Assembly (NCBI GenBank): GCA_022563075.1
Contig: JADFOC010000215.1
Span: forward strand, 1-5,590
Length of the DNA: 5,590 bases
Reading direction: 5' to 3'
Source: Pseudomonadota bacterium
GTDB taxonomy: Bacteria; Pseudomonadota; Gammaproteobacteria; Pseudomonadales; Pseudohongiellaceae
Position numbers and translations under genes: made by a program. The notes below the pieces were generated by a model. The model was not told the DNA's origin, did not search any database, and saw only the letters and a list, made by a program, of their open reading frames with translations. Shown here one piece after another: positions 1,528 to 5,590 of this stretch. Numbering within the stretch: the first letter of the stretch is position 1; the number at the start of each line of letters is the position of its first letter.

Positions 1528-4002
1528 CTATTCATGCCTTAGCGACAAAGTTGGGTTGATATTAGCAGTTATTGCTGCCAGCGTACCGACCGTAATCAAT
1601 GCGATGAGCCAGGCCAAGAGTGCCGCAAAAATAAAGATGCCGATCTCTATAGGAGTCCGGTAGGCAAATTTTTCCAACCAGGCATTCATGAAGTACCAGG
1701 CAGCCGGCCAGGCAATTATATTGGCCAACAACACCAATTTGGTAAAATCTTTGGTTAACAGAGTCACGATACCGAACACGGTACTACCCAGGACCTTGCG
1801 TATGGCGATCTCTTTGGTGCGCTGTTCTGTCAGATAGGAAGCCAGACCGAACAAACCCAGGCCGGCGATGAAGATGGCCATTATGGAGAACACGCGAAAG
1901 AGATCACTCTGTCGCTGCTCTGCCTGATACAAGGCCTGAATTTTTTGTTCTAGAAAGGTTTGACGAAACGGTACGTTCGGTAAGAAACTGTTCCAGGTTG
2001 ATTCGATAAACGAAAGGGTTTCATCCAAATTACGCCCGGAAATCTTTACTGCCACCTGCCGGAAGTTAGGAAACTGTGACTCTGAGTTGTCATGTTCCAT
2101 CACGCGGTAGAACACTGGTTTGACTGCTTCCCTTATCGATGAGAAGTAAATATTATCGGCAACACCGATGATTGGACCTCTTACGGCCATTGGAATTTCT
2201 CTACCTCTGCCCACTTCGAACCATTTATTCAGCGCTTCGTCCGGTGAGAATCCAATCTGTCTGGCCGCCATCTCATTCAGCACAAACGCGCCCCTGGTAT
2301 TCGGGTATTCTTCAGTGGGTTCGACAAAGAGATCGGTGGCTCGGTCCTCAGAGAAACTGCGGCCACTGATTATCTCGATATCAAATGTTTCAAAAAAATC
2401 GTAGTCCACATTCAAAAAAGGTAGGCCTATGAAATTCCCCGTACCGCCCTCATAACGCACAGCAATGGAATTGGTATTCTGATCCCCTGGCATTAGGTTT
2501 GCTGCCGTCACCGAAAGAATCTCAGGATGACGCAGTAATTCCTGTTTCATGGTTTGGTAGTTTGATCCCACTCCTTCGAGGGCGGCGCCTCGATAGAGCA
2601 GTACCTGTTCTTTGGTAAATCCTGGGTCCAGTTTCATGGCGTAATTTAATTGCGCTATAGCGATGCCGGATGCTACCACCAACGTGATAGAAATGGAGAA
2701 CTGTAATACTACTAATATCTTCCGAAACTTGACACCAGCACTGCCACGGGTCAGTTCTCCCTTTAAACTATTTACAGACGGGAATGAGGAAAGATAAAAG
2801 GCCGGATAGCTGCCCGCCAGCAAGCCCACGACCAGTGCTAGGCCACCTAGCAGTAGAATAACCTGAGGATTCTTCGTGTAATCTATCGCCAAGTCCAATC
2901 CAATCAAGTTGTTAAACCACGGCAGCAGCAGCTCGACGCTGCCCATGGCAAGGGCCATAGCGATCACCGTTAGTGCTATCGATTCACCCAGAAATTGCGC
3001 AATAATCTGCCATTGATCTGCTCCCAATGTCTTACGTAGACCTACTTCGCGCGCGCGGCTCGCCGAGCGAGCCGTGGAAAGATTCATGAAATTAAAACAG
3101 GCGATTAACAAGATGAAGACTGCGATGGCGCTAAAAGTATAGACCGTCACAACGTTACCATTGACCTGTAGCTCCCCATCGCGTTGTGAGTGTAGATGGA
3201 TGTCAGTAAGAGCAATGACCTCGAACTGAGTAAAATCGGTGGCGTTTTCTCCAACATGTCTGTTGATGAAGTCCGGTAGAGAATCGATGAATGACTCTAT
3301 GTTATAGCCATCCGGCGCTACAAAATAGGTATGAAAATTGTTACTGGCCCAATTCTCCAGGAAGCTATCACCAAACATGGCGGTTGTAGTTGAAAGAGAT
3401 ATGAATCCCCGCGCATTAAGGTGGGAGTTCCCGGCAGGGTCCTGCATTACTCCAGTGATACGTACTGGTGCCTGATTGGCGACAATAATAGTCTCGCCCA
3501 CCGGATTCTGGTCGCCAAAATATTTTCGCGCCAGCGATTCACTGACTACCATTTGCAACGGCGCCTGCAAGGCCGATTCCCAATCGCCATATATCAGGGG
3601 AATATCAAAGACCTGATAGATTTCTGGATCAACGAATTGAAATCCTTCTTCATAGTAGGACTGATTCGACTCCGGATCAGTCAACACCAGTTGGCCCGCA
3701 CTCATAATGCGCACTACTTGCTGAAATTCCGGGAAGTCCTGTCGCAGTAATGGTCCTACTTGTGGCGCATTGGCAGCGAGATGAAGACTCGGCGAACCGC
3801 TGTTTGCCAAAAACGTACGCATCACCTTGTAAGTTCGATCTGCGTTTACCCAATGCTTGTCGTAACTGCTTTCATGCCTCACAAACAGGGCAATTAGAAT
3901 CACACATACCAAACCAACTGTAAGACCGAGTACATTGATTAGAGAAAAGAGTCGATTCGCCAACAGATTTCTCACGGTTAATAGCAGAATATTCTTTAGC
4001 AT
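1528..4002 (-). CDS. ABC transporter permease with duplicated MacB-PCD/FtsX architecture
   Basis: This 824-residue inner-membrane permease is two FtsX-like units in tandem. Segment 1 is at about 19-41, followed by a periplasmic MacB-PCD-type domain (about 45-280), including the conserved stretch FVRHESSYDKHW near 40-51. Three membrane helices follow at about 284-307, 337-360 and 380-402. The second unit repeats this: helix 428-452, ectodomain 455-695, helices 702-722, 752-774 and 788-812. Each half has the cytoplasmic coupling motif that contacts the ATPase: ARxxREVGLRKTLGA (314-328) and RTKEIAIRKVLGS (728-740). The C-terminus NPTLSLRHE matches the usual NPxxSLRxE end of this family. Length is normal for the ~800-aa class; E. 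coli MacB instead has one unit fused to its own ATPase. One polypeptide therefore probably supplies the equivalent of a permease dimer. No clear Shine-Dalgarno precedes the ATG at 4002, but the N-terminal MLKN...RNLLANRLFSLINVLGL is the standard family start. Substrate cannot be read from the sequence. Confidence 0.93.
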   Translation of the reverse strand: MLKNILLLTVRNLLANRLFSLINVLGLTVGLVCVILIALFVRHESSYDKHWVNADRTYKVMRTFLANSGSPSLHLAANAPQVGPLLRQDFPEFQQVVRIMSAGQLVLTDPESNQSYYEEGFQFVDPEIYQVFDIPLIYGDWESALQAPLQMVVSESLARKYFGDQNPVGETIIVANQAPVRITGVMQDPAGNSHLNARGFISLSTTTAMFGDSFLENWASNNFHTYFVAPDGYNIESFIDSLPDFINRHVGENATDFTQFEVIALTDIHLHSQRDGELQVNGNVVTVYTFSAIAVFILLIACFNFMNLSTARSASRAREVGLRKTLGADQWQIIAQFLGESIALTVIAMALAMGSVELLLPWFNNLIGLDLAIDYTKNPQVILLLGGLALVVGLLAGSYPAFYLSSFPSVNSLKGELTRGSAGVKFRKILVVLQFSISITLVVASGIAIAQLNYAMKLDPGFTKEQVLLYRGAALEGVGSNYQTMKQELLRHPEILSVTAANLMPGDQNTNSIAVRYEGGTGNFIGLPFLNVDYDFFETFDIEIISGRSFSEDRATDLFVEPTEEYPNTRGAFVLNEMAARQIGFSPDEALNKWFEVGRGREIPMAVRGPIIGVADNIYFSSIREAVKPVFYRVMEHDNSESQFPNFRQVAVKISGRNLDETLSFIESTWNSFLPNVPFRQTFLEQKIQALYQAEQRQSDLFRVFSIMAIFIAGLGLFGLASYLTEQRTKEIAIRKVLGSTVFGIVTLLTKDFTKLVLLANIIAWPAAWYFMNAWLEKFAYRTPIEIGIFIFAALLAWLIALITVGTLAAITANINPTLSLRHE

Positions 4003-4057: not shown

Positions 4058-4756
4058 TCAAGCGAATACCGCTCGCTCGGAGTTTGCAGATTCACTAATG
4101 ATTTTTCCGTCCAACATACGCACTATGCGTTTGGCTACCGACGCATCTTCTGCTGAGTGTGTCACCATAACGATGGTCGTACCTTCGTCATTCAGGCCCG
4201 ACAATATCTTCATCACTTCTGTACCGTGTTCGCTGTCCAGATTACCAGTCGGCTCATCCGCCAGAATCAAGTTAGGTTGATTGACGATGGCTCTTGCTAC
4301 CGCGACCCGTTGTTGCTGACCACCGGACAGTTGTTGTGGAAAGTGTTTATTGCGATGACCCATGTCCATTTTGTCTAACACGGCGTTCACTTTGGTTTTG
4401 CGTTCTGCCGATGGCGTCTTGGTATAGATAAGCGGCAACTCTACATTTTCGTAGACTGTTAACTCATCAATCAGATTAAAACTCTGGAACACGAAGCCGA
4501 TATTTTCCTTGCGCAAATTGGCGCGTTGTCGCTCTGAATAGTCGGACACTTCTTCATCGAGAAACCAATATTTGCCGCCATCGGGATTGTCGATCAACCC
4601 CAGAATATGCAGCAAGGTGGATTTGCCACAGCCCGAGGGTCCCATGATCGCCGTAAACTCACCTTTCTCTACTGTCAGATTTACTTGGTCGAGTGCGGTG
4701 GTTTCCACTTCTTCGGTTCTAAATAGCTTCACTAAGCCTTCTGTCTTCAAAATCAT
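4058..4756 (-). CDS. ABC transporter ATP-binding protein, MacB/LolD/FtsE-like
   Basis: This 232-residue nucleotide-binding subunit powers the permease encoded next to it. All catalytic motifs are present: Walker A GPSGCGKST (39-47), Q-loop Q91 in FVFQSFNL, signature LSGGQQQR (143-150), Walker B LILADEPT (163-170, catalytic E168), D-loop GNLDS (171-175) and switch histidine H200 in VMVTH. The pattern FQSFNLIDELTVYENVELPL is typical of the MacB/LolD/YknY branch, whose permeases are FtsX-like, which agrees with the neighbour. It is the first gene of the operon and has the strongest ribosome binding site of the three. Its stop lies 55 nt before the permease start. The protein appears intact and functional. 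LolD itself is unlikely because the partner is not a LolC/E-type permease and an adaptor gene is present. Confidence 0.95.
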   Translation of the reverse strand: MILKTEGLVKLFRTEEVETTALDQVNLTVEKGEFTAIMGPSGCGKSTLLHILGLIDNPDGGKYWFLDEEVSDYSERQRANLRKENIGFVFQSFNLIDELTVYENVELPLIYTKTPSAERKTKVNAVLDKMDMGHRNKHFPQQLSGGQQQRVAVARAIVNQPNLILADEPTGNLDSEHGTEVMKILSGLNDEGTTIVMVTHSAEDASVAKRIVRMLDGKIISESANSERAVFA

Positions 4757-4812: not shown

Positions 4813-4853
4813 ATGCCCTAAACCAGGCCGCTTGTATCCACGCGAAATAAATC

Positions 4854-4877
4854 GAGAAGGCCGGTTACGGCCTCCTC
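4854..4877 (-). terminator. Hairpin in the transporter leader, possible attenuator
   Basis: AGGCCG (4858-4863) and CGGCCT (4868-4873) pair around a GTTA loop. Beyond one mismatch the stem extends with GAG (4854-4856) and CTC (4875-4877). On the minus strand the stem is followed by GATTTATTTCG, a T-rich but broken tail. It sits about 100 nt before the ATPase start, inside the leader if the upstream sigma-54 promoter candidate is real. It could be a weak terminator or attenuator, or simply a structural leader element. Confidence 0.4.
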
Positions 4878-4886
4878 TTGCTGCAT

Positions 4887-4921
4887 CCCGGCCCGCTATG
4901 GTTGCTTCAAAACCCGCCGGG
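4887..4921 (-). other. Second GC-rich hairpin in the transporter leader
   Basis: CCCGGC (4887-4892) is perfectly complementary to GCCGGG (4916-4921), leaving a 23-nt loop. Together with the hairpin at 4854-4877 it gives the predicted transporter leader two neighbouring stems. I cannot match it to a known riboswitch. Confidence 0.35.
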
Positions 4922-4977
4922 CACATCACTGTTGCTTTTAGCTAATCCGTTACCGAAATGCAGTTACGCAGTTTACG

Positions 4978-4994
4978 GGCAATACTCATACCAA
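4978..4994 (-). promoter_or_regulatory. Candidate sigma-54 (-24/-12) promoter of the transporter operon
   Basis: The minus strand reads TTGGTAT-GAGTA-TTGCC. GG and GC are separated by exactly 10 nt, as sigma-54 RNA polymerase requires. Against the consensus YTGGCAYRN4TTGCW only the fourth -24 base and the last -12 base differ. Transcription would start near 4967, giving a leader of about 210 nt before the ATPase. No good sigma-70 promoter was seen nearer the gene. The call is by eye, and is supported by the neighbouring paired elements and the divergent regulator. Confidence 0.55.
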
Positions 4995-5054
4995 CAAATT
5001 ATGTCTTTAATTTCTACAGCTTAGCCGATCAACGCATCTACTGGGCAAACCTAT

Positions 5055-5070
5055 TGTTCCAACCTGAAAC
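5055..5070 (-). promoter_or_regulatory. Candidate activator site A (GTTTCA-N4-GGAACA)
   Basis: On the minus strand this is GTTTCA-GGTT-GGAACA; the GTTTC/GGAAC arms form an imperfect dyad. It is centred about 95 bp upstream of the predicted transcription start of the transporter operon, a usual place for an enhancer of an NtrC-class activator. It lies 25 bp centre-to-centre from site B, in the opposite orientation. Confidence 0.55.
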
Positions 5071-5079
5071 ACTGAATAC

Positions 5080-5095
5080 GTTTCACTACGGAACA
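5080..5095 (+). promoter_or_regulatory. Candidate activator site B (GTTTCA-N4-GGAACA)
   Basis: The plus strand reads GTTTCA-CTAC-GGAACA, identical to sites A and C at all 12 outer positions. It is centred about 120 bp upstream of the predicted transporter start and about 195 bp upstream of the predicted regulator start, so it could serve both divergent promoters. Confidence 0.55.
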
Positions 5096-5257
5096 GCAGA
5101 CGTATTGATTTACAAAAATACAGCCGCCGGAAGACCGAGTACATCTTGGCTTGCCGATGCTAAATGTTTAGTTCGAATCGCGCGCTACAGTGATAACGCT
5201 ACTCTCAGGCGAGTCTGGTTTGCACAACTCGGTGGTTAAGATTCATACCAAGCACGA

Positions 5258-5273
5258 TGGCCTCTATTTTGCT
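5258..5273 (+). promoter_or_regulatory. Candidate sigma-54 (-24/-12) promoter of the response regulator gene
   Basis: The sequence TGGCCT-CTATT-TTGCT has GG and GC separated by 10 nt, an intact TGGC at -24 and a perfect TTGCW at -12. The A at the fifth -24 position is replaced by C. Transcription would begin near 5284, giving a leader of about 195 nt before the ATG at 5480. If real, the regulator gene is itself sigma-54 dependent, which would suggest autoactivation. The long leader is a reason for caution. Confidence 0.45.
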
Positions 5274-5300
5274 CCAGTAGCTTAGCAACTTTTTATATGT

Positions 5301-5317
5301 ATTAGACGCAATCTAAT
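5301..5317. repeat. Perfect inverted repeat ATTAGA-CGCAA-TCTAAT
   Basis: Two 6-bp arms flank a 5-nt spacer just downstream of the candidate plus-strand promoter. It could form a small leader hairpin or be an operator. A shorter perfect palindrome, AACATGTT, lies at 5354-5361. No function is assigned to either. Confidence 0.35.
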
Positions 5318-5406
5318 GGACGCGGTTACCAGTAGATTTATTCGTTATATTTCAACATGTTAAAGAATATTGTCGAATCTGGCCGCGGATGCGAAGAGAA
5401 CTGGGT

Positions 5407-5422
5407 GTTTCATTATGGAACA
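5407..5422 (+). promoter_or_regulatory. Candidate activator site C (GTTTCA-N4-GGAACA)
   Basis: The plus strand reads GTTTCA-ATTAT-type spacing resolved as GTTTCA-TTAT-GGAACA; GTTTCATTATGGAAC is the most symmetric of the three copies. It lies 58 nt before the response regulator start. If the promoter candidate at 5258-5273 is used, this site is within the leader and might mediate negative autoregulation; it could also act as a distant enhancer. Confidence 0.5.
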
Positions 5423-5479
5423 ACCGCTTGTAGCATAACCAGGGGATAACAAGAATTACTAAGAGGATATACAGCAGTT

Positions 5480-5590
5480 ATGGTCTCCAATGGCAATGCA
5501 GTAACAGGCAATATTCTCATCGTGGACGATGACCGAGACGTGTTGCTCACCGCAGAATTGGTTCTCAAAGGGACTCAAAAAATGATCCAG
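5480..5590 (+). CDS. Response regulator, N-terminal receiver fragment (probably NtrC-class); cut by the window end
   Basis: Only 37 codons are visible. After a short 10-residue lead, NILIVDDDRDVLLTAELVLK is the first beta-strand and helix of a CheY-like receiver, with the acidic pocket D16-D17-D18. The phosphoacceptor aspartate and the output domain lie beyond the window. The wording ILIVDDDxDVLLxAxLxLK is common in sigma-54 activator response regulators that sit beside HlyD/FtsX-type ABC operons, so an AAA+ and Fis-type DNA-binding domain is expected; this is inference. The ATG at 5480 is the only usual start after the in-frame stop at 5447-5449. A Shine-Dalgarno-like AAGAGG lies at 5461-5466, 13 nt upstream, a little far. 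The gene diverges from the transporter operon and is its likely regulator; a sensor kinase probably follows. Confidence 0.85.
   Translation, partial: MVSNGNAVTGNILIVDDDRDVLLTAELVLKGTQKMIQ

Follow-up and report, generated by a model that had tools for sequence, protein, structure and literature searches.

In the stretch of DNA analysed here (the window, a whole contig of 5590 bp), two copies of a sequence element lie between the divergent genes of an exporter operon and an NtrC-type response regulator, and these very probably form an enhancer at which the adjoining regulator would act on a sigma-54 promoter (P1) of the exporter operon. A third copy would be autoregulatory. The probability of this reading is put at roughly 90%. 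A preliminary description of the window had proposed that all three copies (sites A, B and C) are binding sites of the neighbouring response regulator. As far as comparison of sequences can tell, this proposal is well supported – the element is conserved among relatives, it stands in fixed geometry and in phase with sigma-54 promoters, it recurs ahead of permease genes, and it tracks the recognition helix of the regulator.

The contig belongs to an assembly of 2,972,638 bp (2.97 Mb) in 531 contigs that is 74% complete. The exporter operon is on the minus strand, and its first gene encodes an ABC ATPase (4058–4756, ATG at 4756; Pfam ABC_tran, E = 5.8e-36). The other genes encode an 824-aa MacB/FtsX-like permease that is ADOP-like (1528–4002; MacB_PCD, E = 1.1e-27, and FtsX in two stretches) and the HlyD-type periplasmic adaptor of the exporter (231–1490; HlyD_D23, E = 2.9e-15). 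The best-scoring named relatives of the ATPase, adaptor and permease are the darobactin exporter DarBCD (NF038008, NF038010, NF038007) and the ADOP subfamily (TIGR03434). DarD is the nearest NCBIfam model to the ATPase (270.7 bits, cut-off 375), and the best matches of the adaptor are DarC (163 bits, cut-off 450) and RND_mfp, the latter above its cut-off. The permease scores 274.3 bits against the ADOP model (cut-off 622.3), with DarB the next-best named relative (128.2 bits, cut-off 700). Since all of the DarBCD and ADOP scores are under the curated NCBIfam cut-offs, membership in either is not claimed.

The response regulator gene begins on the plus strand (5480–5590), where it reads VDDDRDVLL, and is cut by the contig end. 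This fragment ends after ca. 37 residues, so the DNA-binding domain of the window regulator is not seen, and a stretch as short as these ca. 37 codons had no match in Pfam. The rest of the gene was not found in its own assembly, in which the other matches had 33–51% identity. The four orthologous regulators scanned (L010, L011, L029 and L146) each have Response_reg, Sigma54_activat and HTH_8 domains. RpoN was found in all five relatives searched and was not found in the 74%-complete assembly of the window.

The three copies of GTTTCA-N4-GGAACA are real: each is exact and lies where the preliminary description had placed it, between the ATPase and regulator genes. The description's further statements that the window has no other copy and that an RY dinucleotide follows the right arm were both correct, as the sole match outside the intergenic region has two mismatches (1989–2004) and the dinucleotides are AT, GC and AC. 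With up to two mismatches there were six matches in the window, compared to 0.45 expected, and none of 200 shuffles reached six. In the whole assembly the exact pattern occurs three times, always here, and a reversed-pattern control does not occur. The element can be rewritten as a 17-bp palindrome, TGTTYCA-N3-TGRAACA, to which sites A and C are perfect matches and site B has two mismatches. Site A (TGTTCCAACCTGAAACA, 5055–5071) was located by exact-pattern search and in an alignment of nine loci. Site B (CGTTTCACTACGGAACA, 5079–5095) is 24 bp from site A and forms a tandem pair with it. Site C (TGTTTCATTATGGAACA, 5406–5422) was located by pattern search, in the nine-locus alignment and by counts in upstream regions. 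The three sites are given no strand.

Between the pair and the exporter operon is a sigma-54 −24/−12 promoter, P1 (TGGTATGAGTATTGCC, 4978–4993, minus strand), directed toward the ATPase gene, in which TGGTA and TTGC are invariant in the nine aligned loci. The predicted start of transcription, at ca. 4967, is 12 bp beyond the −12 element. The A/B pair had been described as lying about 95–120 bp upstream of the predicted transporter start. This does not hold for the ATG of the ATPase gene, which is 299–339 bp away, and holds only for the predicted transcription start, with the centres of A and B ca. 96 and 120 bp upstream of it. A sigma-54-like promoter in the other direction, P2 (TGGCCTCTATTTTGCT, 5258–5273, plus strand), leads toward the regulator gene, and its TGG and TTGC are likewise invariant in the nine loci. 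A 93-aa open reading frame (4958–5239, plus strand) overlaps P1 and sites A and B; it had no Pfam match and is probably spurious.

The distance between P1 and the centre of site A is 70 bp in the window. Counting the window, each of the nine close loci has its P1-proximal site 67–71 bp from P1, though with two mismatches to the site in L014 and L015. A partner site with at most two mismatches was found in five of the nine (the window, L010, L091, L014 and L015), and is more degenerate in the other four. In relatives with a pair the sites are 21–24 bp apart. In a larger set of 28 loci, many of them chosen for having sites, there were 36 site–promoter distances of 20–200 bp: 59 (2), 67–71 (17), 82 (2), 90–94 (5), 114–136 (8, toward P2), 152 and 195, while three control motifs gave none. 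The steps of ca. 11 bp among these distances suggest helical phasing. The distance from site A to P2 is 195 bp in the window, compared to 114–136 bp in relatives, and site B is a weak copy; both points tell against the reading of the pair as an enhancer.

In Bacteroidota, strict scoring of −24/−12 promoters found little, the −12 element often being TTGR or TGG. A relaxed promoter pattern recovered the layout in part of the Bacteroidota loci, and most loci below ca. 46% identity gave nothing. Eight Bacteroidota loci (L018, L021, L023, L026, L029–L031 and L042) keep a −24 element of TGGYAY, with TTGR or TGG rather than TTGC at −12.

In the nine-locus alignment, the invariant non-coding columns fall in a leader hairpin, a TTGAA that precedes it, P1, site A, P2 and site C. 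Site B has one invariant column, the T and A of a TAnnAT sequence after site C are invariant, and there are two stray columns.

Several features of an upstream activating sequence (UAS) are found here. The window has a 17-bp palindrome and a pair of sites, the partner being degenerate in four of the nine close loci, and a −24/−12 promoter lies downstream at a near-constant distance. The adjoining gene in orthologous loci encodes an AAA+ sigma-54 activator with a helix-turn-helix, of which the window has a truncated copy. The orthologous Sigma54_activat domains carry GAFTGA, GAFTDA or close variants. In the loop that contacts sigma-54, GAFTDA in place of GAFTGA is found in L011–L016, L091, L097, L099, L100, L102 and many of the Bacteroidota regulators compared, and L010 keeps GAFTGA. 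In NorR, a G-to-D change in the GAFTGA loop is described as keeping activity while escaping repression (PMC2941729), and GAFTDA is counted in PMC4641369 among the loops that should still activate.

The element is conserved at this position in relatives. In a first search a perfect palindrome was found in 5 of 58 genomes, that of the window included. A chromosome of the same genus (uncultured Pseudohongiella sp.) has a single perfect palindrome, in the same ATPase/regulator intergenic region. The regulator of this chromosome was used to collect 80 loci, and further loci were added from relatives. Sites with at most one mismatch were counted up to 500 bp upstream of the regulator gene in 78 of the 80 loci, the other two lacking upstream sequence. 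The preliminary description had let its proposal depend on conservation in orthologous intergenic regions and on a frequency above background, and both were found. The element is kept in 7 of 7 loci at a regulator identity of at least 63%, in 7 of 26 at 50–56%, in 4 of 29 at 45–49% and in none of 16 at lower identity (18 of 78 overall). Upstream of the regulator there were 29 sites in 38,355 bp, compared to 3 in 612,402 bp in the rest of the same loci. Across 14 regulator-bearing genomes, 63 places match the site with one mismatch or none, whereas the reversed pattern has 19 such places; those inspected among the 63 were the ones at the regulator loci, in some additional regions and among the composite-search matches described below. 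Two further one-mismatch sites in the genome of the window (L156 and L157) lack a sigma-54 promoter at a suitable distance. In three other genomes (G022, G043 and G047) perfect palindromes adjoin unrelated genes, some of them in genomes with no match to this regulator.

The type of site follows the recognition helix of the regulator. The site was sought within 500 bp of 99 regulators for which 150 bp or more of upstream DNA was available, and it was present with 23 of 25 GRTT helices and with 1 of 74 others, 13 of the 74 having no readable helix. The exceptions are L047 and L072, with GRTT and no site, and L052, with a site and no GRTT. Gammaproteobacteria and Bacteroidota alike have GRTT regulators. 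Regulators with other helices are associated with palindromes of different sequence at a similar spacing from the promoter, in a comparison that drew partly on rows chosen for readable sites: TRGA with TGTCCA-N4-TGGACA (5 of 6), TRAA with TGTTCA-N4-TGAACA (2 of 4), TRFM with TGTGCG-N4-CGCACA (3 of 3) and TRAS with TGTACG-N4-CGTACA (2 of 2, both from strains of a single species). For most other helix classes no perfect palindrome was found. These pairings are consistent with a helix-to-enhancer code in which GRTT would specify TGTTTCA-N3-TGAAACA, and TRGA, TRAA and TRFM palindromes of their own. In a 96-row tree that excluded the DNA-binding domain, 7 changes of helix and 8 changes of site are needed; one independent helix/site pair falls on well-supported branches, and this control for relatedness therefore has little power. 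Helices beginning with TR go with 16-bp palindromes with an N4 core and GRTT with the 17-bp one, possibly a spacing code; the loci behind the 16-bp pattern are L026, L027, L028, L030 and L041; L046 and L050; L048 and L085; and L053, L063 and L066.

The arrangement of site and promoter also recurs elsewhere in relatives. In a test less biased than the set of 28 loci, a composite of the site, a free gap of 45–65 bp and a sigma-54 core was searched for in 194 genomes, of which 17 had matches: 9 of the 13 known to have a GRTT-type regulator, with the window counted among these though its helix is not seen, and 8 of the 181 others. A control composite whose sigma-54 motif had one internal base too many (8 rather than 7) matched 3 of the 194 genomes, none with a canonical site. 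The 12 matches in the nine GRTT genomes have gaps of only 50 or 60–62 bp, and none is wholly inside an ORF of more than 150 aa. Seven precede a MacB-like permease gene, four (the window among them) precede the ATPase gene, and one runs off its contig. The nine matches in the other genomes have gaps of 47–63 bp; seven of these are inside ORFs and none precedes a permease.

Twelve proteins encoded directly downstream of such promoters were scanned with Pfam, and all 12 have MacB_PCD, with FtsX as well except in one short fragment. For L152, the protein scanned comes from the second gene behind the promoter, and the first gene (6523–8955 in L014) is a permease by BLAST only. These proteins and the composite matches indicate that several orphan permeases are probably under the regulator in addition to its own exporter, and control of a wider permease regulon by the regulator family is likely. 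Orphan MacB-like permease genes behind a site with at most two mismatches and a sigma-54 promoter are those of L143–L152, L163 and L164. The L149 permease ends beside an apparent inserted transposase gene.

The enrichment directly upstream of this regulator, the tracking of its recognition helix and the confinement of the composite in regulator-bearing genomes to the ATPase or MacB-like permeases (11 of 12 matches, the other at a contig end) all argue against a different, unlinked global regulator that would control the exporter through these sites while the adjoining regulator binds elsewhere. Sigma-54 promoters, moreover, need an enhancer-binding protein. The unlinked factor draws some support from the position of the window regulator's DNA-binding domain beyond the contig end, from the weak relatedness control of the helix–site association and from some perfect palindromes at unrelated genes in genomes with no match to this regulator; it is considered improbable.

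Relative to P2, site C is on the downstream side, where an activator would not usually bind. The sequence TAGCAT, 8 bp after it (5431–5436, plus strand), is a candidate −10 element of a sigma-70 promoter, P3. A TAnnAT sequence is found exactly 8 bp after the site in 11 of the 14 gammaproteobacterial loci with a site there; the departures are L014, L015 and L102, and L101 had no site there. A strict sigma-70 scan found no consensus promoter at site C, so the case for P3 rests on the conservation of TAnnAT at a fixed distance. Site C covers the −35/spacer region of this candidate, so that bound regulator would block it, and the site probably serves autoregulation of the regulator gene.

The overlap of site C with P3 would also suit a regulator that only represses its own gene and the exporter through all three sites, with no sigma-54 activation, as would the failure to find RpoN in the incomplete assembly of the window. 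This is very improbable given that the −24/−12 core of P1 is invariant and at a near-constant distance from the site in nine loci, that the composite recurs upstream of permeases, and that the orthologues carry Sigma54_activat domains with GAFTGA, GAFTDA or close variants. Chance repetition, made impressive by a pattern defined after the sequence was seen, is hardly credible for a site that all seven of the closest loci collected keep upstream of the regulator and that is seldom found in their remaining sequence.

With sites A and B as an enhancer and site C as an autoregulatory site, the following mechanism may be proposed. The regulator would bind A and B, probably as a pair of dimers, and activate P1: when phosphorylated it would oligomerise on the two sites, loop to the sigma-54 RNA polymerase at P1 and drive formation of the open complex. 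The same pair may also serve the divergent P2. Regulator bound at site C would block basal transcription from P3, in the way that NtrC blocks basal transcription at glnAp1. At glnAp1/glnAp2 the activator's site covers a sigma-70 promoter and a sigma-54 promoter is activated by the same protein; for P2, P3 and site C, corresponding roles are suggested by position only.

Sites A and B resemble the enhancers of NtrC, NifA, NorR and ZraR, which are palindromes, often paired, ca. 100 bp upstream of a −24/−12 promoter, and, as in the NtrC family, they adjoin the gene of an enhancer-binding protein. Unlike in those systems, the genes targeted here encode MacB-like exporters and orphan permeases, site C is in the leader downstream of P2, and P1 leads into a structured RNA. 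The NifA enhancer is a 16-bp TGT-N10-ACA, and the spacing of TGT-N11-ACA in the window excludes a site of that type. Motif groups of Desulfovibrio enhancer-binding proteins are described with TGT and ACA half-sites 9, 11 or 12 bp apart (PMC4641369), and the window site is within these reported spacings.

Sigma-54 promoters have been predicted upstream of COG0577 FtsX-like permeases in gammaproteobacteria and Bacteroidia (PMC12316311, PLoS One 2025). That study uses promoter matrices; its main text does not contain 'UAS' or 'upstream activating', and no activator for these permeases was found in it. In the titles and abstract openings of papers found by literature searches, the site was not recognised as a reported bacterial enhancer and no naming of the motif or of an activator of these permeases was recognised. 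What is proposed here for the FtsX-like permeases is instead an activator family together with its enhancer, a promoter geometry and a list of targets. If the site tracks the helix as it appears to, the enhancer specificity of NtrC-type regulators would become predictable from protein sequence.

A structured leader RNA element (4851–4966, minus strand), which starts at the predicted +1 of P1, is indicated by covariation, a covariance model and a fold z-score of −3.6 in the window. At its 3' end is a terminator-like hairpin of 10 pairs followed by GATTTATTTC (4854–4877, minus strand). Transcripts from P1 are predicted to start with a structured RNA of ca. 105–115 nt that ends in this hairpin. 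A strong hairpin is found in eight of the nine close loci, beginning 102–116 bases after the TGG of P1, and is absent from L011. The hairpin–ATG distance, by contrast, ranges between 37 and 165 in these loci (the end in L012 is approximate). Behind the hairpin, L013 and L016 have a clear run of T; the run is moderate in the window and in L010, and L091, L014 and L015 have a weak one.

Six of the sequences are consistent with a 10-pair outer stem plus the terminator-like hairpin of 11 pairs; L014 and L015 were left out of this fit because they aligned poorly. In the six, 11 of the 21 pairs are changed on both sides, compared to 1–4 in slid controls and a mean of 5.6 in shuffles. When all eight sequences are included, the predicted structure keeps 16 pairs, nine of which have changes on both sides. 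The covariance model was seeded with the window (4851–4966, minus strand), L010 (3442–3553), L012 (223–338), L013 (3432–3544), L016 (3462–3566) and L091 (929–1041), and the window, as one of the seeds, scores 90 bits. The model had confident matches (E at most 2e-14) in 6 of 194 relatives and in the same six of a 137-genome family set, under strict filters that lose weak matches. These six matches occur once per genome, always at this locus, and all are seeds of the model. There were four weaker genome matches (E = 0.004–0.013), one of which falls on the complementary strand at a seed locus. Of 49 loci scanned with the model, strong scores were found only for the seeds, one of them twice (as L012 and L147). 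Rfam 15 had no match at the gathering threshold in the window, L010, L013 or L016. No consistent hairpin was found in the P2 leader, and no P1-type hairpin was recognised after 13 other promoters of the set, three of which are followed by short stems.

With a terminator-like hairpin at the end of this RNA, transcripts are predicted to be attenuated, or a small RNA to be released, before the exporter genes are reached, and the comparisons support a leader RNA with a terminator that would serve as an attenuator or end a small RNA. It is an evenly balanced question whether the P1 RNA is of a new class, gating the exporter or released before it, and whether with it there is a family-wide helix-to-enhancer code from which permease regulons could be predicted in Gammaproteobacteria and Bacteroidota. 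Non-coding RNAs are listed among the targets of enhancer-binding proteins in PMC4641369, so that an RNA as a target of such a regulator has precedent. A covarying RNA after P1 would add to the exporter operon either a control step after initiation or a sigma-54-dependent small RNA.
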